Positions 390 to 63,973 of a DNA stretch of 64,000 nt are shown one piece after another (position 1 is the stretch's first letter; each line of letters opens with the position of its first letter). Made by a program: the position numbers and the translations under genes. Source of the DNA: Lichina pygmaea (taxonomy: Eukaryota; Ascomycota; Lichinomycetes; Lichinales; Lichinaceae); assembly GCA_963422465.1 (NCBI GenBank), contig OY730173.1:1-64000 (forward strand), in the 5' to 3' direction. The notes beneath the pieces were generated by a model. The model made no database searches. It saw only the letters and a program-made list of their open reading frames with translations, and had not been told where the DNA came from.

Positions 390-527
390 CTATCCCCTCT
401 CTCCAAGAGTTCTGTCCCCAGATCCTTTTCCTTCCTACTTCTCTTTTGTCATGAACCAAGATCAGACAACTTGAACTTGTTGTCACAGTTCTCTTTCTTG
501 TCGCATTGGCAAAATAGGCAAGGAATC

Positions 528-1023
528 AAAAATCACATGCGGTGCTTGTTGTCATGACTACGCTAAGTGTGTTGTGAGTTCTGTATTGTCTTTTTGTTGT
601 GGGTGCATCAAGAAGAGTTGTCGCTGCAACCTTCATCTCTCAGAATCAGAATAGAGTAAGATGGAACTTGAGTGTGAGTAGCTTGAGGCTCAGCTGTGAG
701 AGACTGATGACTAATTGTCAAAGTTGCTTCCCTGGCAGATCTGACTCTGCTGGCAGCTGGGTTGTCTCTTACAGAAGAAGGCTGATGCTATCCATCGTGA
801 GCTGTCAGCTATCAAGGATCAAGAGTCCCTTGATGCTCAGGAACAAGAGACTCTCTGTGTTATCTGCGAACAGAAGGCTAGTCAGGCTGCTGCTCCACTG
901 TTCTTTGAGGACATCTTCTCTTCAGAGACTTTGGCTTCTCTCAAGCTGTTGTCCCTGTCAGACTTGGTTGCTGCAGGTTTGCTTGGTGGTAATCCACCAG
1001 CTTCTGGTTTGTCGCAGAGCTGA
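528..1023 (+). pseudogene. A1 antisense zinc-cluster/coiled-coil ORF, decayed
   Basis: This is the counterpart of the antisense ORFs in A2, A3 and A4, here in a decayed copy. It lies on the strand opposite to pol, next to the 3' LTR, and converges on the chromodomain end of pol. The Cys-rich start and the long charged middle are recognisable, and it ends in the Gly-Ser-rich tail shared by the family. The start codon is not resolved. Confidence 0.7.
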
Positions 1024-6276: not shown

Positions 6277-6749
6277 TGTTAAAGGCCAGTCCACGTTCAC
6301 ACAGAATGTGGGTGGTCCTGTCTTCGACCGAGGAGGGCAGGGACTCAATAGATGAATAGCAAGTGGGGTAACTCTCTTGCTATTGTCGCTTGTAATGTGC
6401 GTTCAGCCTGGAGAGCTAATCCCTCCGGGCTCTTTGGGGGTCTTTATACAGATGCCCCAGGGGGGGGGTCTCCTCGAGGGGTATCATCCTTTTGCGTGGA
6501 CGAGCTCCTCGCTTAGCTCCTGCTTGTCCACTGGACGAGCTCCTCGCTTAGCTCCTGCTCGTCCACCGGACGAGCTCCTCGCTTAGCTCCTGCTCGTCCA
6601 CCGGACGAGCTCCTCGCTTAGCTCCTGCTTGTCCACCGGACGAGCTCCTCGCTTAGCTCTTGCTTGTCCACCGGATCGGTCGGATGTTGTTCCGCATGAC
6701 TAACACCTCTCCCTCGCTTACCTGGGCTGTTCTGGCCTAGGCCTTAACA
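6277..6749 (-). repeat. A3 3' LTR (473 bp)
   Basis: On the given strand it runs from TGTTAAAG to CTTAACA. It has five 35-bp dyad units (6498-6669) against two in the 5' LTR, which explains the 105-bp length difference. Outside the array the two LTRs look nearly identical. Confidence 0.96.
6498..6669. repeat. A-type U3 minisatellite of inverted repeats
   Basis: Five tandem units at a 35-bp period start at 6498, 6533, 6568, 6603 and 6638. Each has arms GGACGAGC and GCTCGTCC (or GCTTGTCC) with a 16-bp spacer. Other A LTRs have GACAAGC/GCTTGTC or GATGAGC/GCTCATC, so the arms tend to change together. Possible roles are a dimer binding site or an RNA/DNA hairpin. Confidence 0.85.
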
Positions 6750-6888
6750 CTATCCCCTCCCTCCAAGGGTTCTGTCCCCAGATCCTTTTTGTTCCTGCTT
6801 CTCTTTTGCCATGAACCAAAGCCAGACAACTTGAACTCGTCGCCGTGGTTTTCTCTCTTGTTGTGTTGGCAAAATAGGCAAGGAATCA

Positions 6889-7383
6889 AAGATCGCATGC
6901 AGTGCTTGTCGTCGCGACCACGCCAAGTGTGTCGTGAGTTCCGCATCATCTTTTTGTCGTCGGTGCATCGAGAAGAGTTGTCACTGCAACCTTCATCTCT
7001 CGGAATCAGAATGGAAGAAGATGGAGCTTGAGCGCAAGCAGCTCAAGGCTCAGCTGCGGGAGACTGATGACCAACTGTCAAAGCTGCTTCCCCGGCAGAT
7101 CCGCCTCCGCCGGCAGCTGGGTTGTCTCTCACAGAAGGAGGCTGATGCCATCCGTCGTGAGCTGTCATCCATCAAGGATCAAGAGTCCCTCGATGCTCAG
7201 GAGCAAGAGGCCCTCCGTGTTATCCGCGAACAGGAGGCCCGTCAAGCTGCTGCTCCACTGTCCTTTGAGGACGTCTTCTCTTCAGAGGCTTTGGCTTCTC
7301 TCGAGCTGTTGTCTCTGTCGGACCTGGTCACTGCGGATTTGCTTGGTGGTAATCCACCAGTTTCTGGTTCATCGCAGAGCTGA
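6889..7383 (+). CDS. A3 antisense Zn2Cys6/coiled-coil protein
   Basis: An open frame on the strand opposite to pol, starting 140 bp inside the 3' LTR and overlapping the chromodomain end of pol tail-to-tail. Cysteines are spaced C-x2-C-x6-C-x8-C-x2-C-x6-C, the GAL4-type binuclear zinc-cluster pattern, with basic residues (CRRDHAKC) in the first half. A long charged helix follows (about residues 45-115, rich in Glu, Gln, Arg and Leu), typical of a coiled coil. The end is an acidic, Leu-rich, Gly-Ser tail. A DNA-binding dimer is the natural reading. The start codon is unresolved: no ATG is obvious, so a non-AUG start or a spliced leader is possible. Confidence 0.72.
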   Translation, partial: KIACSACRRDHAKCVVSSASSFCRRCIEKSCHCNLHLSESEWKKMELERKQLKAQLRETDDQLSKLLPRQIRLRRQLGCLSQKEADAIRRELSSIKDQESLDAQEQEALRVIREQEARQAAAPLSFEDVFSSEALASLELLSLSDLVTADLLGGNPPVSGSSQS

Positions 7384-12705: not shown

Positions 12706-15469
12706 GTTCGAAGAAACAGTGATCACAACACTACCAGAACATCAGGAGTAGGACCACAAGATTCCACTAGAAGATGGAAAAAAACCCACACACAGCCCTA
12801 TCTACACTCTGTCAGCAAAAGAGCTTGAGGCCCTGAGAGACTACCTGGACAAGAACCTAGCGAAAGGGTTCATAAGACCTTCAACATCACCGGCTGGATA
12901 CCTGATATTGTTTGTGCTAAAGAAAGACAGCAAACTTTGACTGTGTGTTGATTACCGGTGGCTAAATGTGATTACAGTGAAGAACTGTTACCCACTGCCA
13001 CTGATATCAGAAATCCAAGACCAGATCCAAGGAGCCAAATAGTTCACCAAGTTTGACATTCAAGGCACTTTCAACCTGGTTAGGATGAAAGACAGCAAGG
13101 AATGGAAGACAGTCTTTTGTACAAGGTACAGGCACTACAAGTATACTGTGATGCCATTCAGCCTTACGAATGCACTGGTGACATTCCAATCACTTATTAA
13201 CACTGTCCTCTGATAATACCTGGACATATTTGTCACTGCTTATATTGACGATGTCTTGGTATACACCAATGGAACCTTGGAGGAGCATAAACAGCATGTC
13301 AAAACAATCCTACATGCGCTCCAGAAAGCAGGCATGAGGTTATGCCTTGATAAAAGTGTTTTCTACACAAAGGAAGTGGAATATTTGGGGTTGATCCTGA
13401 CAACAGAAGGAATCCGAATAGACGACACGAAGACGGCAGCAGTACAAGACTGGCCAACACCCAAAAACCTCAAAGAAGTACAATCCTTCCTAGGATTTGC
13501 AAACTTCTACTGATGATTTATCAAGGACTACTCAAGAACAGCAGCAGCCTTGACAGAGTTAACCAGAAAGAACAAATCTTTCAGGTGGGGGGAGAGCCAA
13601 CAAGTGGCCTTCCAGGAGTTGAAGGATAAATTCATCTCCACACCTATTTTGGCATCATTTGATCCTGAGAAGAGGATCATTCTGGAAACTGATGCCTCAG
13701 ACCAAGCATTGGGATCCTGCTTGTGTCAACCAGACGCCGACAACTGCTTACACCCTGTCGTGTATCGATCAAGAAAGTTCTCTGGCCCAGAACTGAGGTA
13801 TGATGTTCACAACAAAGAGTTGCTAGCAATCATCAACACATTCCAAGAATGGAGGCCTTACTTGGAGGAGGCAAAATACACAGTAGACATGTACTCAGAC
13901 CACAAGAACTTAGCTTACTTCACAACAACAAAGAAGCTAAACTGACAACAAGTTCAATGGGCAGAGTTGTTAGCATCATACAACTTCCAAATCCTCTACT
14001 GGAAGGGCACTGAAAATGCTTGAGCAGACACTCTCAGCAGGTGACCAGACCTGATGGATGAGAAAACAACAGAGGAACACCCAATCCTAGTGATAAAAAG
14101 ATGAACCCTGGTCTATGCCCAACCCCAACTGGTAACAACAGAAACAAAGAGTCCACTCCTTACCCTTGGCCACAAGACAGCAAACAAAAAGGAAATTGTG
14201 CCAGAAAGAGCACAAGAGGAGGTGATCCAGAGGCACTATGACAGGCCTTTGCACAGACACCCCGGGCAAGATAAAACCTTGGAGAAAATCCAAAGGAATT
14301 ACCACTTTGACAGAATGAAGCGCAAGGTGACAGAGTTCATTCGCAACTGTGAACAGTGTGCGAAGAACAAGCCATCAAGACATAAGCCCTACGGGCAGGC
14401 ACAGTAAATAGACTTACCCAAGGCACCATGGGAAACTATCATGATAGATTTCGTGGTCAAGTTGCCAAAGTCAACAGACCCAGCAACAAAAGTGGTATAC
14501 GATAGTATTTTGGTGGTTGTTGACAAGCTCACCAAATACACCCACCTGGTCCTGTGGAAAGAGTCAGGAACCGCGAACAAACTTGTGAGTGTCCTACTCA
14601 GAGAGCTGGTAAGCCACTGAGGGCTACCAAAGACAATCATCTTAGATCAAGACAAACTCTTCACCTTGAAATTCTGGAACACGTGGACAAGGCAACTTGG
14701 CATTGATACAAGGATGTCAACAGCCTACCACCCACAAACCAACAGACAAACTGAGCGGACAAACCAGACAATAGAGCAGTATCTACAATACTACATCAAC
14801 CACCAGCAGGATAACTGGGTGGAACTGCTACCAATAGCCCAGTTTGCGTACAACAACCAGCAACATAGTGTGACAGGGACAACACTATTCTTTGCGAACT
14901 ACAGAAGAAACCCCCAATAGCAGGCAACAGCAGGAGGTGATATTGTCGATGTTAGCAAACTCGCTGCTATGCACAAGATAATGAAAACAATGATCAACTG
15001 TGCCCAGAACACCACCACCCGCTGATTACACAACAAAAGGTTGAAGGGACCAACCCTGGAAAGGGGGGATAAGGTCTAACTATCAACAAAAAACCTGCGC
15101 TCAAAGTGACTGAGCAAAAAGCTGGATCATGTACGAATCAGACTATTCAAAATCAAGAAGTGTACTGGGAAGGTCAACTATTGACTGAGACTACCACAAA
15201 AAGCAAGGATACACTGAGTACTCCACGTCTCACTGCTCAAACCAGCACCCAGTGACACAGAGATTGAGACAGAATGGAACTTCAAGGATAACAAAGAAGA
15301 GTACGATGTCAAAAGGATCCTGGATAGTCGAAGAAACAGATGGAAAACTGAGTACCTGGTGAAGTGGTTAGGATTTGACAAAGAAGAAAATTCGTGGGAA
15401 CCAACCGAGAACTTCAGCCCTGCGATGAACCAGAAGCTGGTGGATTACCACCAAGCAAACCCACAGTGA
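12706..15469 (+). pseudogene. A2 pol, RT to chromodomain
   Basis: Continuation of A2 after A3: RT (about 12780-13520, YIDD near 13245), RNase H (13620-13950; LETDASDQALG, KELLAIIN, DHKNLAYF), integrase finger (about 14230-14400), integrase core (14430-14930; TAYHPQTNRQTERTNQ) and a chromodomain-like end WLGFDKEENSWEP (about 15370). Decayed, with many breaks. Confidence 0.88.
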
Positions 15470-15911
15470 CCAGGTCCAACAGAGACAACAGCTTGAGAGA
15501 AGCCAAAGTCTCTGAAGAGAAGATGTCCTCAAAGGATGGTGGAGCAGCAGCCTGACTGGCCTCCTCTTCGCGGATAACACGGAGAGCCTCCTGTTCCTGA
15601 GCATCAAGGGATTCCTGATCCTTGATGGCAGACAGCTCACAACAGATGGCATCAGCCTCCTTCTGTGAGAGACAACCCAGCTGCTGGCGGAGGCAGATCT
15701 GCCAGGGAAACAACTTTGACAATTGGTCATCAGTTTCCCGCAGCTGAGCCTCAAGCTGCTCACACTCAAGTTCCATCTTCTTCCATTCTGATTGTGAGAG
15801 ATGAAGGTTGCAGCAATGACCCTTCTCAACATACTGACAACAAAAAGATGATGCAGAGCTCATGACACACTTGGCGTGGTCACAACAACAAGCACCGCAT
15901 GTGATTTTCAA
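15414..15911 (-). CDS. A2 antisense Zn2Cys6/coiled-coil protein
   Basis: An open frame opposite to A2 pol, beside the 3' LTR, related to 6889-7383. The leading Cys/His-rich segment (CGACCCDHAKC, then CCQ) follows the zinc-cluster layout, and a long Glu/Gln/Leu helix and the tail GSSQG follow. The first codon of the frame is TTG, so the real start is uncertain. Its 3' end overlaps the chromodomain end of A2 pol. Confidence 0.65.
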   Translation of the reverse strand: MKITCGACCCDHAKCVMSSASSFCCQYVEKGHCCNLHLSQSEWKKMELECEQLEAQLRETDDQLSKLFPWQICLRQQLGCLSQKEADAICCELSAIKDQESLDAQEQEALRVIREEEASQAAAPPSFEDIFSSETLASLKLLSLLDLVTVGLLGGNPPASGSSQG

Positions 15912-16047
15912 TTCCTTGCCTATTTTGCCAATACGACAAGAGAGAAAACTGTGATGACAAGTTCAAGTTGTCTGGCTTTGGTTCATGACAAAAGAGAAGC
16001 AGGAACAAAAAGGATCTGGGGACAGAACCCTTGGAGGGAGAGGATAG

Positions 16048-16473
16048 TGTTAAGGCCTAGGCTGGAACAGTCCAGGTAAGTGAGGGAGGAGTGTTAGTCA
16101 TGCAGAACAACATCTGACTGATCTGGTGGACAAGCAGGAGCTAAGCGAGGAGCTTGTCCGGTGGACAAGCAGGAGCTAAGCAAGGAGCTTGTCTGGTGGA
16201 TGAGCAGGAGCTAAGTGAGAAGCTTGTCCACGCAAAAGGATGATACCTCTTGAGCAGACCCCCCTCTTGGGGCATCTGTATAAAGACCCCTCAAAGGGCC
16301 CGGAGGGATTAGCTCTCCAGGCTGAACAAACAATACGAACTCATCGTACTGAGACAATAGCACAGGAGAGTTACCCCACCTGTCTATTCCTCTACCGAGT
16401 CCCTGTCTAGAATCTGCTCTGCGAAGCAACAGACTGAGCCGCCTTCTGTGTGAACCCAGCCCAGCCTGTAACA
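16048..16473 (+). repeat. A2 3' LTR (426 bp)
   Basis: It follows a purine-rich tract ending GGATAG and runs TGTTAAGG to TGTAACA. It has three dyad units (about 16126-16229) against one in the 5' LTR; the 70-bp length difference equals two 35-bp units. Confidence 0.95.
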
Positions 16474-18675: not shown

Positions 18676-19137
18676 TGTTAAAGGCTGGGCTAGGTTCACA
18701 CAGAAACTGGTACAGTCTGTTGCTTTGTAGGGCGGATTCTAGACAGGGACTTGGTAGAGGAATAGACAGGTGGGGTAACTCTCCTGTGCTATTGTCTCAG
18801 TACGATGGATTTGTATTGTGTGTTCAGCCTGGAGAGCTAATCCCTCCGAGCCCTTTGGGGGGTCTTTATACAGATGCCCCAAGGGGGGGGGTCTTCTCAA
18901 GCGGTATCATCCTTTTGCGTGGACAAGCTCCTCGCTTAGCTCCTGCTCATCCACCAGATGAGCTCCTCGCTTAGCTCCTGCTCATCCACCGGACAAGCTC
19001 CTCGCTTAGCTCCTGCTTGTCCACTGGACAAGCTCCTCACTTAGCTCTTGCTTGTCCACCGGATCAGTCAGATGTTGTTCTGCATGACTAGCACTCCTCC
19101 CTCACTTACCTGGGCTGTTCCGGCCTAGGCCTTAACA
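18676..19137 (-). repeat. A4 3' LTR (462 bp)
   Basis: It runs TGTTAAAG to CTTAACA on the given strand, with four dyad units (about 18921-19060). It is the same length as its partner, so no units were gained or lost. Confidence 0.96.
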
Positions 19138-19273
19138 CTATCCCCTCCCTCCAAGAGTTCTGTCCCCAGATCCTTTTTGTTCCTGCTCCTCTTTTGTCAT
19201 GAACTAAAGCCAGACAACTTGAACTTGTCATCACAGTTTTCTCTCTTGTCGTATTGGCAAAATAGGTAAGGAA

Positions 19274-19771
19274 TTGAAAATTGCATGCGGTGCTTGTTGT
19301 CGCGACCACGCCAAGTGTGTCGTGAGCTCTGTATCATCTTTTTGTTGTCGGTGTGTTGAGAAGGGTCATCACTGCGACCTTCATCTCTCGGAATCAGAAT
19401 GGAAGAAGATGGAACTTGAGTGTGAGCAGCTCAAGGCTCAGCTGCAGGAGACCAATGACCAATTGTCAAAGTTGCTTCCCCAGCAGATCCACCTCTGCCA
19501 GCAGCTGGGTTGTCTCTCACAGAAGGAGGCTGATGCCATCTGTCGTGAGCTGTCAGCCATCAAGGATCAAGAGTCCCTTGATGCTCAGGAACAAGAGGCC
19601 CTCCGTGTTATCCGCAAACAGGAGGCCTGTCAGACTGCTGCTCCACTATCCTTTGAGGACATCTTCTCTTCAGAGGCTTTGGCTTCTCTTGAGCTGTTGT
19701 CTCTGTCAGACCTGGTCGCTGCGGGTTTGCTTGGTGGTAATCCACCAGCTTCTGGTTCATCGCAGAGCTGA
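19274..19771 (+). CDS. A4 antisense Zn2Cys6/coiled-coil protein
   Basis: A 165-codon open frame opposite to pol. It starts 136 bp inside the 3' LTR and ends inside the chromodomain end of pol. CGACCRDHAKC then CCRCVEKGHHC give C-x2-C-x6-C-x8-C-x2-C-x6-C, the GAL4-type zinc cluster. The helix LHLSESEWKKMELE onward is strongly amphipathic, and the tail FEDIFSSEALASLELLSLSD is acidic and leucine-rich like an activation domain. It is the clearest full-length A example. The first codon is TTG, so the start is not certain. Confidence 0.74.
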   Translation: MKIACGACCRDHAKCVVSSVSSFCCRCVEKGHHCDLHLSESEWKKMELECEQLKAQLQETNDQLSKLLPQQIHLCQQLGCLSQKEADAICRELSAIKDQESLDAQEQEALRVIRKQEACQTAAPLSFEDIFSSEALASLELLSLSDLVAAGLLGGNPPASGSSQS

Positions 19772-29907: not shown

Positions 29908-30537
29908 TGTTGCGGTCCGTACTGTACCGTCCTATCCGAGTATAGGATTAGGGCGAGAGGCGGAAGGTGGGTTGGTTCTCGCAGGAGAGGAGTGTCAAGG
30001 AGCGCGAAGGGGTTTGGTGGAACGTGGTGGTGGTGACACCTGATCAACGGCTTCGTACAAAAGGATTGTATTGAAGTAGATCTAGTTGTCTGGATCACAA
30101 CATGAGTTGAAGATGATCGTTCCATAGGGGAACTATCGCCTGGCTATATAGTGCCCAGTTCGTGAGCAGAGTGAGCTCTGCTCACTTTGCTCACTTGGTG
30201 AGATAAGTGAGCTCTGCTCACTTTGCTCACTTTTCATGCACGCTGCAGTGAGCTGGGTGAGCTCTGCTCACTTTGCTCACTTTTCATGCACACTGCGGCG
30301 AGCTGGGTGAGCTCTGCTCACTTTGCTCACTTTTCATGCACGCTGCGGCGAGCTGGGTGAGCTCTGCTCACTTTGCTCACTTGTTCGTGCATATGCATGC
30401 TGCGGCGAGCACCCCCTGGTTTGTCTCGCCGGTCACGTGACCAGTTCCCGTGTCACGCTGTCTGGTACTTCTGTCCAGTATCCTGTCTGCTGCTTTCTGT
30501 GAGTATATAAAGACCGTGTTCCTCCTGGGTCGTAACA
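29908..30537 (-). repeat. B1 3' LTR (630 bp)
   Basis: It runs TGTTGCGG to GTAACA on the given strand, with five GTGAGC-N12-GCTCAC dyads (about 30165-30385). The partner LTR has four. Confidence 0.97.
30504..30512 (+). promoter_or_regulatory. TATA box facing the B1 antisense ORF
   Basis: TATATAAAG on the + strand lies 26 bp before the inner edge of the 3' LTR, pointing into the element. The antisense zinc-cluster ORF begins about 80 bp downstream. On the other side of the dyad array is the usual TATA box for the genomic transcript, so the U3 looks bidirectional. Promoter activity is inferred. Confidence 0.55.
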
Positions 30538-30589
30538 CTATCCTCCTCTCTATCTTTCATTGTCTTGATGAAATCTGGTCATACCTCCA

Positions 30590-31081
30590 AAGTCACATGC
30601 GACTGTTAGCTGAACTCAGCTGGCTGCTCAAATCCGCGATCGGGGTTTTGTTTCGTGTACGCCCTGCGACTTTTGTGTTCTCTGTGGTCGTCCATGCTTC
30701 CAGATGCCGGGAGAGGACGATAAGTTGAAATGTGCTGCGTGCACTCGGCGCGGAAGGTCTTGTGTCTCTGTGTCCTGGGAATCTTTGAACATGTCCCGGG
30801 ACAACCTCCGTGAGGATGTTGCCGCTGACGAGGCAACACGTGATGCACTCTTTGAACAACTTGCCACAGTGCAGGCTTGTCTGTCTCGGAAGCGAAAGGT
30901 GTTGGAGGGTGCCGAGGTCCGTGCGAGGCAGAAGCTTCAGTGCTTGGTGAAAGAGATGGAGTCGGATGGCGAGGATTTGACTCGATCAGTCATTGACGCG
31001 TCCCTCCTGCAGGCCGAGCTGTTCGGTCCTGTTCCTGCCGAAACTGTCGCAGAAGAAGCTGGCAGTTCACGAGGTTCTTGA
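30590..31081 (+). CDS. B1 antisense Zn2Cys6/coiled-coil protein
   Basis: It lies opposite to pol and overlaps its last 90 bp or so tail-to-tail. The clearly open part runs 30704-31081, starting [20 protein letters not shown], the second half of a zinc cluster. The first half (CDFC...PC in B4) lies just upstream in the same frame. A helix [21 protein letters not shown] through about 30960 and a short acidic, Gly/Ser-rich tail follow. Comparison with C2 shows mostly synonymous change, so the frame is real. Its role is unknown; a DNA-binding dimer that regulates the element is my inference. Confidence 0.75.
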
Positions 31082-36477: not shown

Positions 36478-37920
36478 CTGAACTCCTAGGGCAACACAAG
36501 TTCAAGATCTTGTACACCCCCAGACAAGACAATAGGAAAGCAGACACACTAAGCTGACAAAAAAACTACATGGAAGATGATGAACACCAAGGAACAATCT
36601 TACAGCAGGACTAGCAAGGAAACCTGGTGCCTCAACTACAGATCAACAAGCTCATGGCAGAAGACACTGAAGAACTAATAAGGAACTACCATGATAATCC
36701 AGCACATGGTCACCCAGAAATCACCAAAACCACAGACCTTATCCAACAGGCAGGGAACAATATCATTAACCTCTGACAACATGTCACAAGCTGCATCAGC
36801 AAGTGTCTACTATGCCAGAAAAACAAACATGGAAGACATAAGCTATATAGAGAAGGACACCCGAACACAATACCAAGAGACTCTTGGGAAGACATGTCAA
36901 TAGACTTCATCACAAAGCTACCCAAGTCCAAAGATCCAGTCACCAGAATCACCTACAACTTAATTATAGTGATTGTAGACAGATTTACAAAATACCTAAT
37001 AGTGGTACTATTCAAGGAAACCCACACAGCAGAGTAGTTGGGACACCTCCTACTGGACAGATTGGTTAGGGACCACAGAGTTCCAATCACAGTCATTACT
37101 GACAGAGACAATCTCTTCACATCCAACTACTGGAAAACAATCAGTGCAGCCATGGGAACAAAACCCAAAATGTGTACAGCCTATCACCCACAAACTGACA
37201 GCCAGACAGAGTAAGCAAACCAAGTTCTGGAGACTTATTTGCAGCATTACATCAACCAGACCCACAGCAATTGGGTACAGCTATTACCAGTGGCACAGCT
37301 GGCAATTAACCAGCACAGATCAGACTCAACAAAGGAATCACTATTCTTTGCTAATTTTGGGCAACACACAAACATCAGAATACCAAGCAGAGCTTCACCA
37401 AACACAGAGAAAGTACTCCAACATAACAAGCTCCTACAACAAACACACACAATGATAAGGCACTACCTTCAAGAGACCTCAGAAAAGATGCAATACCAAA
37501 TAGACAAAAAATCAAAAATGGCACCTCAGCTGAAGAAGGAGGATAAAGTCTACCTCCTCACAAAAAATTGGAAAACAAAAAAGCCAAAGACAAAGAAACT
37601 TGACAATATCAAGGTCAGACTATTTTCAGTTGAAGAGAAAACAGGACCAGTCAACATCAAGATACAACTACCAAGGGATGCCAGAGTCCATCCAAACTTT
37701 CATATATCAATGATTGAACCAGCTGACCAGAGCACATCCTTGCAGGAAACATTTCATTATCAACCAGAGGAAGAACAAGAGTTCAAAGTGGAACAGATCC
37801 TGGCTAGGAAAAGTCAGCAATACCTTGTCAAGTGGAAAGGATACTGAGACTTGGAAAATACCTGGGAACCACTCAAGAACCTCGTGAACTGCCAGCTTCT
37901 TCTGCAACAGTATTGGCAGG
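36478..37920 (+). pseudogene. C1 pol part 2: RNase H end, integrase, chromodomain
   Basis: Resumes after B1: integrase finger (about 36715-36830), core (36890-37210), the [19 protein letters not shown] block (about 37670-37720) and the chromodomain YLVKWKGY (near 37835). Decayed. Confidence 0.86.
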
Positions 37921-37929
37921 AGTAGGACT

Positions 37930-38390
37930 GAACAGCTCAGCCTGCAGAAGGGATATGTCAATGACTGATCAAGTCAAATCCTCACCATCTGACTCCATCT
38001 CTTTCACCAGACACTGAAGCTTCTTCCTCGCACAGACCTCAGTGCCTTCCAACACCTTTCACTTCTGAGACAGATGAACTTGCACTGCAGCAAGCTGTTT
38101 GAAGAGTATGTCACATGTTGCCTTTTCAGCAGCCACATCCTTGTGAAGATTATCTTGGGTCATGTTCAACAACTCCCAAGAAAGTGACACACAGGACTTC
38201 CCATAACAAGTGCATTCAGCGCACTTCAACTTATTGTTGTTGTCAGACATTCAGAAACAGGGCTTGTGGTTCAAAACACAGAAGTCACACAGAGTAAGTG
38301 ACATGAAGTTATGATCACAAATCTGGGCTGCCAGTTGTCTTCAGTAAGCAGAGGCATGTGATTTGGCAGACATACTCAAGAATTCATCAG
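37930..38390 (-). pseudogene. C1 antisense zinc-cluster ORF, decayed
   Basis: It lies between the pol end and the 3' LTR, on the opposite strand. The best block (38059-38250) reads MSDNNNKLKCAECTCYGKSC then VSLSWELLNMTQDNL, matching the C2 version with its second zinc-cluster half and coiled-coil start. Decayed like the rest of C1. Confidence 0.7.
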
Positions 38391-38417: not shown

Positions 38418-39021
38418 TGTTACAATCTCTGGGATAGGAGCCACTCATTTATAAGCAATCAGGCTGCGGGCCAGGCAAGAGGACACCATGGAAGCCAAGT
38501 GACCAAAACTGACAAAGGGTCATGTGACTGTCAAGACAAACACAGGTGGCTTGACGCAGCATGCATGAAGTATCAAGACAATCTCACCAGTCTTGATGCA
38601 GGGTGCAGGAAGCATCAAGACAATCTCACCTATCTTGACACAGTGTGCATGAAGTGTCAAGACAATCTCACCAGTCTTGACACAGGATGTATAACATAGT
38701 GGGACTGTCAAGACAATCTCACCTGTCTTGATGTCAAGACTGTCAAGACAATCTTGATTGTCTCAACAGGCCAGCACTATATAGTCTGGTGATAGTTCCC
38801 TTATGGAATAATCATCTTCAACTCATGTTGTGATCCAGACAACTAGATCTACTTCAATACAATCCTTTTGTACAAAGCTATTGATCAGGTGTCACCACCA
38901 CCATGTTCCACCAAACCCCTTTGCACTCCTTGACACTCTTCTCCTGCAAGAACCAACCTGCCTTCCACATCTCACCCTTAATCCTATACTCAGTTAGGAC
39001 AGCACAGTACAGACTGCAACA
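38418..39021 (+). repeat. C1 3' LTR (604 bp)
   Basis: It is the same length as 25902-26505 and clearly similar. A purine tract ending GGGTAG precedes it. The dyad array spans about 38526-38765. Confidence 0.94.
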
Positions 39022-44800: not shown

Positions 44801-45104
44801 AGTCAAAGAAAAAACCGGACCAGTCAACATCAGACTGCGACTACCAAGGGATGCCAGAGTCCATCCAAACTTTCATATATCAATGATTGAACCAGCCGAC
44901 CAGAGCACACCCTTGCAGGAAACATTTCATCACCAACCCGAAGAAGAACAAGAGTTTGAGGTTGAACAGATCCTGGCTAGAAAAGGTCAGCAATACCTTG
45001 TCAAGTGGAAAGGATACCCAGACTCGGAGAATACCTGGGAACCACTCAAGAACCTCGCGAACTGCCGGCTTCTTCTGCGACAGTTTTGGCAGGAGCAGGA
45101 CTGA
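41805..45104 (+). pseudogene. B3 pol: protease to chromodomain
   Basis: Protease [16 protein letters not shown] (about 41880), RT (about 42540-43060, YLDD near 42940), RNase H (about 43380-43640), integrase finger (about 43880-44010), core (44067-44387), and the carboxy part with [19 protein letters not shown] and chromodomain [18 protein letters not shown] (about 44994-45050). Several breaks. Confidence 0.9.
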
Positions 45105-45105
45105 A

Positions 45106-45535
45106 CAGCTCGGCCTGCAGGAGGGATGTGTCAATGACTGATCAAGTCAAATCCTCACCATCCGACTCCATCTCTTTCACCAAGCACTGAAGCTTCTGCC
45201 TCGCACGGACCTCAGCACCCTCTAACACCTTTCACTTCCAAGACAGACAAGCCTGCACTGTGGCAAGTTGTTCAAAGAGTGCATCACGTGTTGCCTTGTC
45301 AGTGGCAACATCCTCACAGAGGTTGTCCTGGGACATGTTCAAAGATTCCCAGGACACAGAGACACAAGACCTTCCGCGCTGAGTGCACGCAGCACATTTC
45401 AACTTATCGTCTTCTCCCGGCATCTGGAAGCACGGACAACCACGGAGAACACAAAAGTCGCAGGGCGTACGCGAAACAAAACCCCGATCGCAGATTTGAG
45501 CAGCCAGCTGAGTTCGGCTAACAGTCGCACATGAC
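45106..45535 (-). pseudogene. B3 antisense zinc-cluster ORF, partly decayed
   Basis: On the strand opposite to pol, beside the 3' LTR. The open block 45232-45423 begins [20 protein letters not shown] and continues into the coiled-coil helix. The first zinc-cluster half is recognisable upstream. It is decayed compared with B1 and B4. Confidence 0.7.
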
Positions 45536-45589
45536 TTTGGAGGTATGACCAGATTTCATCAAGATGATGAAAGATGGAGAGGAGGATAG

Positions 45590-46133
45590 TGTTACAACCC
45601 AGGAGGAACACAGTCTTTATATACTCACAGAAAGCAGCAGACAGGATACTGGACGGAAGTACCAGACAGTGTGACACGGGAACCAGTCACATGACCGGCA
45701 AGACAAACCAGGGGGTGCTCACCGCAGCATGGATATGCACGAACAAGTGAGCAAAGTGAGCAGAGCTCACCCAGCTCGCCGCAGCGTGCATGAAAAGTGA
45801 GCAAAGTGAGCAGAGCTCACCCAGCTCACTGCAGCGTGCATGAAAAGTGAGCAAAGTGAGCAGAGCTCACTCTGCTCACAAACTGGGCACTATATAGTCT
45901 GGCGATAGTTCCCCTATGGAATGATTGTCTTCAACTCATGTTGTGATCCAGACAACTAGATCTACTTCAATACAATCCTTTTGTACGAAGCCGTTGATCA
46001 GGTGTCACCACCACCACGTTCCACCAAACCCCTTCGCACTCCTTGACACTCCTCTCCTGCGAGAACCAACCCGCCTTCCACCTCTTGCCCTAATCCTATA
46101 CTCGGATAGGACAGTATAGTACGGACCGCAACA
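45590..46133 (+). repeat. B3 3' LTR (544 bp)
   Basis: It is preceded by the polypurine tract GGAGAGGAGGATAG. It has the same length and unit number as the 5' LTR. Confidence 0.96.
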
Positions 46134-55600: not shown

Positions 55601-55966
55601 AATTGGAAAGTCAAGAAACCAAGAACAAAGAAACTGGACCATGTCAAGGTCGGACCATTTTCAGTCGAAGAAAGAACCGGACCAGTCAACATCAGACTGC
55701 GACTACCGAGAGACGCTCAGGTACACCCAAACTTTCACATCTCAATGATCAAATTAGCCGACCAGAGCACACCCTTGCAGGAAACATTTCATTACCAACC
55801 AGAGGAAGAACAGGAATTCGAGGCTGAACAGATCCTGAAGAGAAAAGGTCAGCGATACCTTGTCAAGTGGAAAGACTACCCAGACTCGGAAAATACCTGG
55901 GAGCCACTCAGGAACCTCGCGAACTGCCAGCTCCTCCTGCAGCAGTTCCGGCAGGAGCAGGACTGA
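52667..55966 (+). pseudogene. C2 pol: protease to chromodomain
   Basis: Protease [17 protein letters not shown] (about 52738), RT (53291-54060; [32 protein letters not shown]), RNase H (about 54150-54480; ETDASDQAVGACLC, DKELLAVVNALEHW), finger HPGITKTTDL with CLLCQKNKHGRHK, core VSMDFITKLPKSKDP to STAYHPRTDGQTE (about 54935-55245), and chromodomain [18 protein letters not shown] (about 55857-55910). It is mostly open with few breaks. Confidence 0.92.
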
Positions 55967-56093
55967 ACAGCTCAGCCTGCAGCGCGGACGCATCAATGAC
56001 CGTCGCCGACAAGTCTTCACCATCCACCTCCATTTCAGCAACAAGGCACTGGAGCTTCTTCCTTGCTTGACCCTCAGCACCCTCAAGAACCTT

Positions 56094-56408
56094 TCACTTT
56101 CGGGACACACGAGCCTGCAGCTCGGCAAGCTGCTTGACAAGAGCATCCCGCTTGGCCTCATCGACAGCCAAATCCTCGCGAAGGTTATCCCGAGTCATGT
56201 TCAGCGACTCCCAAGAAAGTGACACACAGGACTTTCCCTGACGAGTGCACTCAGCGCACTTCAACTTATCGTTGTCGTCAGACATTCGGAAGCAGGGCTT
56301 GTGGTTCAAAACACAGAAGTCACACGGAGCAAGCGACACGAAGTTATGATCACAGATCTGGGCTGCCAGTTGGTTTCGGTAAGCAGAGGCACGTGATTTT
56401 GGAGACAT
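56094..56408 (-). CDS. C2 antisense Zn2Cys6/coiled-coil protein
   Basis: It lies opposite to pol, with an ATG at 56408, 44 bp inside the 3' LTR. MSPKSRASAYRNQLAAQIC precedes CDFCVLNHKPC, an 11-residue linker and CAECTRQGKSC, giving C-x2-C-x6-C-x11-C-x2-C-x6-C, the GAL4-type zinc-cluster pattern. The helix NMTRDNLREDLAVDEAKRDA follows. The frame extends upstream into the LTR, but this ATG fits the transcript predicted from the antisense TATA box at 56480-56487. It is the best example with an ordinary start codon. Confidence 0.78.
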   Translation of the reverse strand: MSPKSRASAYRNQLAAQICDHNFVSLAPCDFCVLNHKPCFRMSDDNDKLKCAECTRQGKSCVSLSWESLNMTRDNLREDLAVDEAKRDALVKQLAELQARVSRK

Positions 56409-56452: not shown

Positions 56453-57052
56453 TGTTACGACCCAGGGATGGGAGCCACTCATTTATAGGCAATCAGGCCG
56501 CGGGCCAGGCAAGAGGACACCATGGAAGTCAAGTGACCAACCAACAAGGGGTCACGTGACTGTCAAGACACACACGGGAGTCTTGACGCATGATGCATGA
56601 AGCATCAAGACAATCTCACCAGTCTTGACGCAGGGTGCATGAAGCATCGAGACAATCTCACCCGTCTCGACGCAGGATGCATGAAGCATCGAGACAATCT
56701 CATCTGTCTCAACGCAGGGTGCATAACATGGTGGGACTGTCAAGACAATCTCACCCGTCTCGACGTCAAGACTGTCGAGACAATCTCGATCGTCTCGACA
56801 GGCCAGCACTATATAGTCCGGCGATAGTTCCCTTATGGAATGATTGTCTTCAACTCATGTTGTGATCCAGACAACTAGATCTACTTCAATACAATCCTTT
56901 TGTACGAAGCCGTTGATCAGGTGTCACCACCACCACGTTCCACCAAACCCCTTCGCGCTCCTTGACACTCCTCTCCTGCGAGAACCAACCCGCCTTCCGC
57001 CTCTCGCCCTAATCCTATACTCGGATAGGACAGTACGGTACGGACCGCAACA
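56453..57052 (+). repeat. C2 3' LTR (600 bp)
   Basis: It is the same length as the 5' LTR. The dyad array mixes CpG-containing units (TCGAGAC/GTCTCGA) with CpG-lost but still matched ones (TCAAGAC/GTCTTGA). A polypurine tract ending GGGTAG precedes it. Confidence 0.97.
56480..56487 (-). promoter_or_regulatory. TATA box facing the C2 antisense ORF
   Basis: TATAAATG on the minus strand lies 28 bp inside the 3' LTR and about 72 bp upstream of the antisense ATG at 56408. The surrounding U3 is unrelated to that of B, yet B has a TATA box at the same place. Confidence 0.5.
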
Positions 57053-59520: not shown

Positions 59521-62500
59521 ACTCCCTTGTCAAGGGGCAACATCGGGAGCTCAACAACATGACCCCTAGCAACGCAAAGCACCTGCGATTGCCTGTGTCA
59601 CTACACGCCAACACGCCAGTACGGACATACGCACTTGTTGACTCTGGAGCCAGTGGGAACTACATTTCAAGACAACTTTACGATACCCTCGGCACTGGAA
59701 GAAAACGCAAGCAGCAGCCCTATCAGCTCGCGATGGCAAATGGACAGACAGAGCTAGTCTGCCATGAGACGCAGCCAATGGAAATGGTTACCGGACACCA
59801 TGCTGAAAGGATCCACCTTGATATCGTCGAGTTGGCCACTCAGGATATCTACTTGGGGATGCCTTGGCTAAAGAAGCACAACCCAGTTGTTAACTGGAAG
59901 ACAGGAGTACTCACGTTTAGGAACTGCACTAACAACGCAGCTCGGACCTGTTACCAGCCGCAGAAGGCATGGACAGATGAGGGAAGGAGTCCTCAGTGGA
60001 ACCTCACCGACAGAAAGGACAACTCTCAAAAGAAGAGGTCTGCCTTGACAGGCACACCCCGGAACCAGGTGGCCAAACAGTCAGAGATGAAGAGAGAGGA
60101 AGTTGTTAACCTTCTGGAGATCCCTGAAGAGTACCGACCTGGGTATGATAACCTCTTTCAGGAAGAGACAACGACAGCAGTGTTGCCTAAGCACCAACCT
60201 TGGGATCATGAGATCAAGTTGCAACCAGGGACAGAGCCAGAATTTGGACCAATTTACCAGTTATCAGAGAAAGAGCTCCAAGTACTTCGCGAGTACCTGG
60301 AGGAAAACCTGAAAAAGGGTTTCATTCGAGAATCTCAATCGCCAGCAGGATACCCGATACTATTTGCACCAAAGAAAGACGGAAGTCTTCGACTTTGTGT
60401 GGATTACAGGAAACTCAACGACATTACCATCAAGAACTGATATCCGTTGCCAAATGCGAACGAATTGCGAGACAGGATCAGCCAAGCTACAATCTTTACC
60501 AAGCTGGACTTGAAAGGAGCATACAACCTGATACGCATGAAAGAAGGAGAAGAATGGAAGACAGCCTTCAGAACCCGATACGGACACTACAAGTATCTGG
60601 TTATGCCATTCGGACTCACAAACGCACCAGCAACATGTCAAGCATTGATCAACAACGTCATCAGAGCACACCTGGACCAAACAGCTATCACCTACCTGGA
60701 CAACATTCTTGTCTACTCGAACACGCAACAAGAACATACCAAACATGTGAAGGATGTTCTATGATGCCTACAAGAGGTAGGGCTCAAGCTCAACCCAAAG
60801 AAATACGAGTTCAACAAACTGGAAGTTGAATTCCTCGGATACATCATAGGGATCGAAGGGATCAAGATTGACCCTGAGAAAATCAAAGCGATTCAGCAAT
60901 GGCCAACACCAACATCAGTTAAGGAAGTACAAGCCTTCCTGGGATTTGCCAACTTCAACTGACAGTTCATCAAGAACTACTCACAGATGGCAACACCACT
61001 GACAGAACTCACGAAGAAGGACGTGGAGTACCGGTGGACGGAGAGACAACAAAAAGCATTCCAACAGCTCAAGGACACTTGCGCCAAGGAACCAGTTCTC
61101 CTCAACTTCAAGACAGGCCAGCCGACACGAATCGAGACGGACGCTTCAGATCAGGCAGTGGGAGCATGTCTATGCCAACAGGCAGACGGCAAGTGGCACC
61201 CAGTTGCCTACTACTCACGAAAGATGACACAAGCGGAACAAAACTATGATATCCACGATAAAGAGCTACTGGCAGTCGTCAACGCACTCGAACACTGGAG
61301 AGTGTACGCGGAAAGCAGTTCTGAACTCACCATTCTCACAGACCACAAGAATCTGACAATGTTCACAACAACCAAGAAGCTGAACAGACGGCAAGTCAGA
61401 TGGGCTGAACTCCTAGGGCAACACAAGTTCAAGATCTTGTACACCCCTGGACGAGACAATGGGAGAGCAGACGCACTAAGCCGACGAAAAGACCACATGG
61501 AAGATGATGAACACCAAGGAACGATCTTACAGCAGGACCAGCAAGGAAACCTGGTGCCCCAGCCACAGATCAACAAGCTCACAGCAGAAGACACTGAAGA
61601 ACTAATAAGGAACTACCATGATAACCCAGCACACGGTCACCCAGGAATCTCCAAAACCACAGACCTTATCCAACAGGCAGAGAACAATGTCATTAACCTC
61701 CGACAACATGTCATAAACTACATCAGCAAGTGTCTACTATGCCAGAAAAACAAATATGGGAGACACAAGCTATACGGAGAAGGACACCCGAACATGATAC
61801 CGAGAGGCCCGTGGGAAGACGTGTCAATGGACTTCATCACAAAGCTACCCAAGTCCAAAGACCCAGTCACAGGAATCACCTACGACTCAATTATGGTGAT
61901 AGTGGACAGATTCACAAAATATCTAATAGTGGTACCATTCAAGGAAACCCACACAGCAGAACAGTTGGGACACCTTTTACTGGACAGATTGGTCAGAGAC
62001 CACGGAGTTCCGATCACGATCATTACAGACAGAGACAAACTCTTCACATCCAACTACTGGAAGACAATCAGTGCAGCCATGGGAACAAAACCCAAAATGT
62101 CTACGGCCTATCACCCACGAACTGACGGCCAGACAGAGCGAGCAAACCAAGTCCTGGAGACTTACCTACGGCATTACATCAACAAAACCCACAGCAATTG
62201 GGTACAATTATTACCGGTGGCACAGCTGGCAATCAACCAGCACAGATCAGACTCAACAAAGGAATCACCATTTTTTGCCAATTTTGGACGACATGCAAAC
62301 ATCGGGATGCCAAGCAGAGCTTCACCAAACACGGAGAAAGCACTCCAACATGACAAGCTCCTACGACAAACGCACACGATGATAAGGCACTACCTTCAAG
62401 AGACCTCAGAAAGAATGCAACGCCAAATGGACAAGAAATCGAAAATGGCACCTCAGCTAAAGAAGGGGGATAAAGTCTACCTCCTCACAAGAAATTGGAA

Positions 62501-62852
62501 AACGAAGAAACCAAGAACAAAGAAACTGGACCATGTTAAGGTCAGACCATTTTCAGTCGAAGAAAGAACTGGACCAGTCAACGTCAGACTGCGACTACCA
62601 AGGGATGCCAGAGTCCATCCAAACTTTCATATATCAATGATTGAACCAGCCGACCAGAGCACACCCTTGCAGGAAACATTCCATTACCAACCTGAAGAAG
62701 AACAAGAATTTGAGGTTGAACAGATCCTGGCTAGGAAAGGTCAGCAATACCTTGTCAAGTGGAAAGGATACCCAGACTCAGAAAATACCTGGGAACCACT
62801 CAAGAACCTCGCGAACTGCCAGCTTCTTCTGCGACAGTTTCGGCAGGAATAG
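59478..62852 (+). pseudogene. B4 pol: protease to chromodomain
   Basis: Protease [17 protein letters not shown] (about 59628), RT (60280-60970), RNase H (61040-61400; ETDASDQAVGACLC), finger HPGISKTTDL with CLLCQKNKYGRHK (about 61640-61770), integrase core (61825-62135; STAYHPRTDGQTERANQ), and [19 protein letters not shown] with chromodomain [18 protein letters not shown] (about 62748-62802). The region from 60987 to 62852 is open for 621 codons. RT has a few breaks. Confidence 0.93.
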
Positions 62853-62895
62853 GACCGAACAGCTCGGCCTGCAGGAGGGATGCGTCAATGACTGA

Positions 62896-63282
62896 TCAAG
62901 TCAAATCCTCGCCATCCGACTCTATCTCTTTCACCAAGCACTGAAGCTTCTGCCTCGCACGGACCTCGGCGCCCTCCAACACCTTTCGCTTCCGAGACAG
63001 ACGAGCCTGCACTGTGGCAAGTTGTTCAAAGAGTGCATCACGTGTTGCCTTGTCAGCGGCAACATCCTCACGGAGGTTGTCCCGGGACATGTTCAAAGAT
63101 TCCCAGGACACAGAGACACAAGACCTTCCGTGCTGAGTGCACGCAGCACATTTCAACTTATCGTCCTCTCCCGGCATCTGGAAGCATGGACGACCACGGA
63201 GAACACAAAAGTCGCAGGGCGTACGCGAAACAAAACCCTGATCGCAGATTTGAGCAGCCAGCTGAGTTCGGCTAACAGTCAC
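62896..63282 (-). CDS. B4 antisense Zn2Cys6/coiled-coil protein
   Basis: A 128-codon open frame opposite to pol, 62 bp inside the 3' LTR. CDFCVLRGRPC, an 11-residue linker and CAACTQHGRSC give the full zinc-cluster pattern C-x2-C-x6-C-x11-C-x2-C-x6-C. The helix [20 protein letters not shown] continues through [19 protein letters not shown], basic then acidic. The frame's first start-like codon is GTG and the true start may lie slightly upstream. The TATA box at 63369-63377 faces it. Confidence 0.77.
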   Translation of the reverse strand: MTVSRTQLAAQICDQGFVSRTPCDFCVLRGRPCFQMPGEDDKLKCAACTQHGRSCVSVSWESLNMSRDNLREDVAADKATRDALFEQLATVQARLSRKRKVLEGAEVRARQKLQCLVKEIESDGEDLT

Positions 63283-63343
63283 ACATGACTTTGGAGGTAT
63301 GACCAGATTTCATCGAGATGATGAAAGATGGAGAGGAGGATAG

Positions 63344-63973
63344 TGTTACGACCCAGGAGGAACACAGTCTTTATATACTCACAGAAAGCAGCAGACAGGA
63401 TACTGGACGGAAGTACCAGACAGCGTGACACGGGAACCGGTCACGTGACCGGCGAGACAAACCAGGGGGTGCTCGCCGCAGCATGCATATGCACGAACAA
63501 GTGAGCAAAGTGAGCAGAGCTCACCCAGCTCGCCGCAGCGTGCATGAAAAGTGAGCAAAGTGAGCAGAGCTCACCCAGCTTGCCGCAGCGTGCATGAAAA
63601 GTGAGCAAAGTGAGCAGAGCTCACCCAGCTCACTGCAGCGTGCATGAAAAGTGAGCAAAGTGAGCAGAGCTCACTTATCTCACCGAGTGAGCAAAGTGAG
63701 CAGAGCTCACTCTGCTCACGAACTGGGCACTATATAGCCAGGCGATAGTTCCCCTATGGAACGATCGTCTTCAACTCATGTTGTGATCCAGACAACTAGA
63801 TCTACTTCAATACAATCCTTTTGTACGAAGCCGTTGATCAGGTGTCACCACCACCACGTTCCACCAAACCCCTTCGCACTCCTTGACACTCCTCTCCTGC
63901 GAGAACCAACCCGCCTTCCACCTCTCGCCCTAATCCTATACTCGGATAGGACGGTACGGTACGGACCGCAACA
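63344..63973 (+). repeat. B4 3' LTR (630 bp)
   Basis: It is preceded by the polypurine tract GGAGAGGAGGATAG (about 63330-63343). Five dyads against four in the 5' LTR explain the 50-bp difference. The CACGTG palindrome is at 63437-63452. Confidence 0.97.
63369..63377 (-). promoter_or_regulatory. TATA box facing the B4 antisense ORF
   Basis: TATATAAAG on the minus strand, 25 bp inside the 3' LTR and about 90 bp upstream of the antisense frame. It is the same sequence and position as in B1 (30504-30512). Confidence 0.55.

Follow-up and report, generated by a model that had tools for sequence, protein, structure and literature searches.

Four related families of LTR retrotransposons in the genome of Lichina pygmaea, assigned from their encoded domains to the Ty3/Gypsy chromoviruses, carry an additional gene that is encoded opposite to pol, starts a short way inward of the 3' LTR, and evolves as a protein between families. 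Its product has six conserved cysteines, and profile comparison gives good support, short of proof, for a Zn2Cys6-like cluster of the kind found in fungal transcription factors. A tandem array precedes the gene in the LTR of nearly all copies, and on balance we lean towards the reading that the gene encodes a regulator of the element's own LTR, a Zn2Cys6-like protein that would bind this array in U3.

The window, meaning the whole stretch of 64,000 nucleotides that was analyzed, is one end of a contig in a genome of 32.5 Mb in eight contigs. Long repeat matches between copies of LTR retrotransposons cover most of it, and neither Rfam matches at the gathering threshold nor tRNA genes were found within it. 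Scanning of three pol pieces detected reverse transcriptase, RNase H, protease, integrase, and SH3_Tf2-1 domains, with a chromodomain at the C-terminus of one of them, a combination that identifies the elements as chromoviruses. Families A, B, and C are represented in the window, and family D is found elsewhere in the genome. Positions 1 to 150 of the window hold 25 exact CCCTAA repeats and are telomere-like; LTR-element sequence follows directly, so that the retroelements extend to the contig end.

Nine copies of the antisense gene, from families A, B, and C, are present in the window (Table 1), and each carries at least one in-frame stop. The earlier note, made from the sequence alone, had named six antisense frames with a C-x2-C-x6-C-x8/11-C-x2-C-x6-C motif followed by a charged helix. 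All six exist, on the strand opposite pol, and the complete motif is present in five of them, one cysteine having been lost from the frame at 15414-15911; the count of six has to be raised by three further copies. The frames as named also start too late, the genes beginning further upstream, and the ATG of family A corresponds to a position 26 codons before 6889. The overlap between the antisense gene and the pol frame, measured up to the pol stop in two copies, is 56 nt in the family A copy at 6811-7383 and 53 nt in a family B copy (pol end at 62852). The 3' LTR of the family B element with the gene at 30581-31081 carries the array and both TATA sites of that copy, and a purine-rich tract, read on the pol strand, separates this LTR from the antisense gene.

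Table 1. Antisense genes in the window with the associated LTR and pol features; all listed genes contain in-frame stops
Feature	Positions	Strand	Remarks
Family A antisense gene	6811..7383	+	In-frame stop; 6889-7383 is its inner part
Frame of the earlier note	6889..7383	+	Six-cysteine cluster at residues 4-33 of translation P0001
Stop codon of the pol/chromodomain frame	7328..7330	-	Inside the 3' end of the gene at 6811-7383
LTR tandem array of the gene at 6811-7383	6498..6675	+	35-bp unit, about 5 copies
TATA-like site in the LTR beyond this array	6443..6448	-	Directed towards gag-pol
Family A copy	451..1023	+	Not named in the earlier note; many in-frame stops; array 174-311
Family A copy	15414..15986	-	In-frame stop; one of six cysteines lost; array 16122-16228
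Family A copy	19199..19771	+	In-frame stops; array 18921-19063
Family B copy	30581..31081	+	In-frame stop, also within the named frame 30590-31081; altered start; TATA 30504-30513; array 30207-30391; TATA-like site beyond array 30145-30150
3' LTR of the element with the gene at 30581-31081	29908..30537	-	TGTT..AACA on + strand; limits set by eye
Family C-like copy	37873..38373	-	Not named in the earlier note; several in-frame stops; TATA 38446-38453; array 38562-38685
Family B copy	45046..45546	-	Not named in the earlier note; in-frame stops; altered start; array 45736-45879
Family C copy	55908..56408	-	In-frame stop, which cuts short the named frame 56408-56094; TATA 56480-56487; array 56580-56724
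Family B copy	62800..63300	-	In-frame stop; altered start; TATA 63368-63377; array 63490-63674; TATA-like site 63731-63736
pol part of the element with the gene at 62800-63300	60987..62852	+	RNase H, integrase, SH3 Tf2-1, chromodomain

Searches of the whole genome returned at least 150 A-type matches (150 scored of 273 candidates) and at least 150 B/C-type matches (150 scored of 503), and the matched part, which leaves out the 26 upstream codons, is free of stops in 115 of the 150 scored A-type matches. The association with the chromodomain was examined from both directions. Among 50 chromodomain loci, comprising the 30 best and 20 chosen of 150 listed and reducing to 47 distinct loci after removal of 3 duplicates, every distinct locus (34 B, 8 C, 5 D) has an antisense-gene match on the opposite strand at a distance of -37 to 149 nt from the chromodomain, the match being partial at one of them (L064). 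The 150 listed loci are themselves a scored subset of 966 candidates, a sample from which families with degraded chromodomains fall out, and no A-type gene lies beside a chromodomain among the 47. In the reverse direction, the 3' end of the gene was accompanied by a chromodomain on the other strand in 29/29 copies of family A. The position and orientation of the gene agree with those of the additional antisense ORFs that chromodomain Gypsy elements carry between pol and the 3' LTR. Four loci (L035, L055, L071, and L083) hold two antisense genes within 3.5 kb, some of them partial and of the same or different families; these pairs are nested or tandem insertions.

For evolutionary analysis, weak, overlapping, short (<430 nt), and identical stretches were excluded, which left 89 copies, and removal of three partial ones (one A, two B) gave a set of 86, made up of 29 A, 6 D, 38 B, and 13 C copies after four copies initially labelled B were reassigned to C. 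An ATG is present in 78 of the 86 and all six cysteines in 81, and 23 copies, all outside the window, are open from ATG to stop, with lengths of 190 aa in A, 176 aa in D, and 166 aa in B/C. When stops were counted in all six frames, with the last 60 nt excluded here and in the dN/dS analysis, stop-free copies occurred in the gene frame only (17/35 for A+D and 6/51 for B+C). Between families, the ratio omega (Nei-Gojobori) of the gene frame is 0.241 for A-D (174 pairs) and 0.124 for B-C (494 pairs, with dS saturated in 47), and that of the other frames ranges from 0.88 to 1.90, except in the mirror frame rc1. Differences at the three codon positions follow the same pattern, at 0.26/0.18/0.44 for A-D and 0.27/0.18/0.51 for B-C, and keep this order when CpG sites are left out. 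Within families omega is higher, at 0.29 to 0.56, as is expected of dying copies. In pol of the same families omega is 0.159 for A-D (about 70 codons) and 0.157 for B-C (70 pairs from 35 B and 2 C copies), and the antisense gene is thus constrained about as strongly as pol (0.24 and 0.12 versus 0.16). The cysteine pattern was obtained in none of 100,000 shuffles of the family A ORF. We conclude that the gene evolves as a protein between families.

A chance open frame is rejected by the six-frame stop counts and by dN/dS. It might also be asked whether the frame mirrors the coding of pol, since omega is low in rc1 as well (0.38 for A-D and 0.23 for B-C), but such values are expected where, as in rc1, third positions coincide with those of the gene frame; rc1 is moreover full of stops (6.2 per copy in A+D and 4.6 in B+C) and open in 0/35 and 0/51 copies, and the overlap with pol spans just 53-56 nt where measured, with the last 60 nt excluded from the comparison. 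Together, the chance and mirror explanations are refuted here and retain next to no probability. A third explanation holds that the antisense RNA matters, through double-stranded RNA, silencing, or self-limitation of the element, the protein being secondary. Transcription across the end of pol would indeed make double-stranded RNA, and this alternative is raised in the available part of a published review of such genes (PMC7264820). An RNA role would not protect codons, however, and a dN/dS of 0.12-0.24 together with six cysteines kept over very different sequences disfavors antisense RNA alone, to the point that we regard it as very improbable.

The proteins of families A and D share 55-61% identity in local matches, and one open pair of B and C proteins shares 66%. 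The central cysteine loop is x8 in A/D and x11 in B/C. The Zn2Cys6 family PF00172 has the spacing C-x2-C-x6-C-x5..12-C-x2-C-x6..8-C, into which the cysteines of both groups fit, and 81 of the 86 copies keep the pattern. Protein searches recovered 70, 175, and 90 relatives in overlapping lists from other records, the distant ones (P0149, P0163, and P0196-P0230) being known as proteins alone; no relatives were found in viral contigs with three profiles. Alignments were built of 10 relatives and two loci (A3), of 23 relatives and two loci (A4), and of 22 chosen rows (A5), six of them from this genome, P0229 (one cysteine lost) and two fragments, P0154 and P0198, being left out. Aligned relatives are 23-66% identical to the first row of A4. 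The six cysteines are invariant in all 22 rows of A5 and each is at least 90% conserved in the 25 rows of A4; cysteines are lost in P0087, P0215, and P0229, and P0211 has a longer middle loop. The profiles of A/D and B/C match each other over cluster and helix with a probability of 83% (E 8.9e-6) when distant relatives are added, and weakly with narrower alignments (probabilities of 2.2% and 30.8%); on this comparison A/D and B/C are assigned to one family.

The identity of the cluster was addressed by profile-profile comparison with domains of the host, in whose genome the fungal domain PF00172 is matched 27 times. Against 12 host Zn2Cys6 domains, the N-terminal profile gave an hhalign probability of 90.7% and a score of 30.7, with the cysteines in register, and A/D and B/C taken separately gave 85.8% and 87.1%. 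Controls in which the joint profile was shuffled (30 each) reached scores of at most 15.2 with all columns shuffled and at most 21.1 with only the non-cysteine columns shuffled, and the joint profile scores above both. The single proteins scored lie at or below the PF00172 cut-off of 21 bits: P0214 scores 21.0, P0207 and P0209 score 20.6, the translation P0001 of the frame at 6889-7383 scores 18.0, and other scores are lower. In Pfam searches with alignment members, PF00172 was the top family for A4, with matches in 10/25 at E 1; in A2, at E 0.1, it and an unrelated family were each matched by 6/15 members, and in the B/C alignment A1 it was matched by 1/8 (E 0.82). Direct sequence searches of Pfam and the PDB returned weak Zn2Cys6 matches amid coiled-coil and other noise, the PDB chains of GAL4, PUT3, PPR1, and LEU3 being among the matches, all with E > 0.05, and a search of NCBIfam returned nothing credible. 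The Zn2Cys6 assignment of the earlier note rests mainly on the profile-profile match, and we describe the cluster as Zn2Cys6-like, an identity that is well supported but not proven. One relative, P0154, carries the precomputed Pfam family PF27583.1, which may have been created recently for this protein.

The cluster is followed by some 60 residues with 0-2 prolines. Heptad periodicity was significant at 5% or better in 15 of 22 proteins and absent in seven, among them both tested B/C proteins of this genome, L013 (B) and L065 (C); in this test of heptads and charge the cluster of P0014 was misplaced by the search pattern. The coiled coil predicted in the earlier note is thus suggested in the majority of the proteins without being secure. 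The N-terminus is basic and the C-terminus is net negative in 20/22 proteins. The broad outline of the earlier description is supported: next to the 3' LTR, and antisense to pol, lies a gene that encodes a Zn2Cys6-like cluster followed by a helix-like region.

The claim that no such gene had been described in these elements did not survive a search of the literature. In Botrytis cinerea, Boty-like elements were reported by Zhao et al. in 2011 (Virology 417:248) to contain an additional antisense gene, brtn, and its position, between pol and the 3' LTR, is in print (PMC8365987, PMC7264820, PMC4227169); Boty is a fungal Gypsy element whose gag-pol polyprotein holds a chromodomain (PMC4227169), and a Monilinia transcript resembles BRTN (PMC5987419). 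The genes described here share with brtn the orientation antisense to gag-pol, the location between pol and the 3' LTR, and the type of element, a comparison made by description only. They differ in that brtn is not called a zinc cluster in the accessible portions of these four papers, and the name BRTN is borne by none of the relatives listed from our protein searches. According to the accessible text of a 2020 review, no clear similarity is on record for antisense products of this kind, known from fungi and plants, and no function has been determined (PMC7264820). Among plant elements, gene23 of maize Grande is an antisense ORF with a predicted nuclear product (PMC7264820), and antisense ORFs of Retand encode a TRP28 domain with predicted DNA binding (PMC11963269). 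Both resemble the present gene in lying antisense between pol and the 3' LTR (PMC7264820, PMC11963269), and many Retand elements also contain family-specific tandem repeats, as far as described in PMC11963269. The same source places the Retand repeats between pol and the 3' LTR, not in U3, and Retand in a plant lineage outside the chromoviruses, and the TRP28 domain is, by its description there, another domain (PMC11963269). The Gal4-type regulators of PF00172 (GAL4, PUT3, PPR1, and LEU3) resemble the antisense product in cysteine spacing, basic N-terminus, acidic C-terminus, and profile match; in contrast to them, the present proteins are carried by a mobile element, are 166-190 aa long, and as single sequences do not exceed the Pfam cut-off. 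In the literature searched, to which subscription papers did not belong, neither a zinc-cluster antisense gene nor the array layout was found reported for fungal retrotransposons. As far as these searches reach, the position was known, and the type of protein and the regulatory layout are newly recognized.

The layout concerns the LTR upstream of the gene. In family B, TATAWA stands 75 nt before the gene start in 38/38 copies, reading TATATAAA in the five printed, and in family C it stands 79-81 nt before the start in 13/13 copies, where only the antisense direction gives a TATA reading. A tandem array is present in the LTR before the gene in 80/86 copies (27/29 A, 5/6 D, 36/38 B, and 12/13 C), with a unit of mostly 35 bp in A, 47 or 69 bp in D, 50 bp in B, and 42 bp in C. 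Beyond the array, 78 of the 80 copies with an array have a TATA-like site, a count made without a shuffle control; in the printed copies this site points to gag-pol in A, whereas in B, C, and D the core of the site can be read in either direction. From the TATA sites on its flanks, the array probably sits between the transcription start of gag-pol and that of the antisense gene. In the most frequent unit of family A, GCTCGTCC-ACC-GGACGAGC forms an 8-bp dyad, and 4 of 500 shuffles attained a dyad of this length. The unit of family D shares the half-site GGACGAGC, although the A and D LTRs may simply be homologous. The arrays may alternatively serve host factors only. It weighs against the regulator in this respect that none of the 35 A/D copies has TATAWA within 120 nt of the antisense start, and that the dyads of the D, B, and C units are matched more often by shuffles (25, 89, and 31 of 500).

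In the self-encoded regulator that we favor, this third gene would have an antisense promoter in the 3' LTR, at the outer border of U3, and its product of 166-190 aa would comprise a basic N-terminus, the binuclear Zn2Cys6-like cluster, a probable helix of about 60 residues that may dimerise, and an acidic C-terminus. The array in U3, with the gag-pol promoter on one side and the antisense start on the other, would be bound by the dimer, in the manner of Gal4 at a divergent promoter or of the antisense protein HBZ in HTLV-1. Since both LTRs are alike, the arrays in all 5' LTRs of a family could be bound by protein from any of its 3' LTRs, and array binding would determine in trans, for the family as a whole, how far sense or antisense transcription prevails. 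The protein would in this way control gag-pol and bind its own promoter too. As to the sign of the effect, the acidic tails suggest activation, and promoter competition or occlusion would give repression; feedback control is the form we favor. HBZ is a nuclear regulator made from a 3' LTR promoter that acts on the activity of its own LTR, according to the accessible part of PMC3185765, and an antisense gene with a promoter in the 3' LTR is what we propose here. The difference is that HBZ is a bZIP protein, not a zinc cluster, and works via CREB and p300/CBP (PMC3185765, as accessible), and no sequence relation is claimed.

Two other roles for a DNA-binding protein have to be weighed against LTR regulation. 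The product may instead be a DNA- or nucleic-acid-binding protein acting after transcription, for instance in nuclear import of the preintegration complex, targeting of integration, or protection of cDNA. A basic N-terminus with a cluster and an acidic tail would suit such a role, as would a constraint about equal to that of pol (0.24 and 0.12 versus 0.16), and the available portion of PMC7264820 raises the idea that such genes take part in retrotransposition, nuclear import being given as background. A separate antisense promoter, however, uncouples the protein from the gag-pol RNA, which would be odd for a part in the particle or in integration, and the arrays before the gene are left unexplained; we therefore consider a post-transcriptional role unlikely, though it is the strongest of these competitors. 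The protein might also have the host as its target and compete, for instance, with Zn2Cys6 factors of the host or with silencing. Pairing with host factors, or displacing them, could be within reach of a small Zn2Cys6-like protein that has an acidic tail, and HBZ controls cellular genes too, as stated in the accessible text of PMC3185765, but the family-specific arrays are in the element itself, and action on the host appears less likely still.

Extended beyond these four families, the self-encoded regulator leads to the proposal that fungal chromoviruses generally encode a Gal4-type factor together with its array between divergent LTR promoters, factor and array co-diverging into a private feedback circuit for each family. 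This wider proposal is tentative, and we hold it with less than even confidence. If true, DNA-binding regulators encoded antisense at the 3' LTR would have one more origin in addition to those of HBZ and the plant antisense ORFs, which would suggest repeated emergence of such regulators, among retroviruses as well as among retrotransposons. Because the present gene encodes a cluster recognizable as DNA-binding, is under clear selection, has many relatives, and is accompanied in the LTR by a candidate binding array, the function of the class of antisense genes between pol and the 3' LTR becomes directly testable in yeast.

Two further features of the sequences were observed. The window has a CpG observed/expected ratio of 0.41 and a CpA ratio of 1.33, and copies often differ by changes of the type Arg to Cys, His, Gln, or stop (uncounted), resembling methylation-type CpG decay. 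Between families, dS of the antisense gene is 1.0 for A-D and 1.9 for B-C, versus 0.44 and 0.40 in the adjacent end of pol, an excess of 2 to 5 times; one possibility is that an LTR-proximal module has been swapped between lineages.
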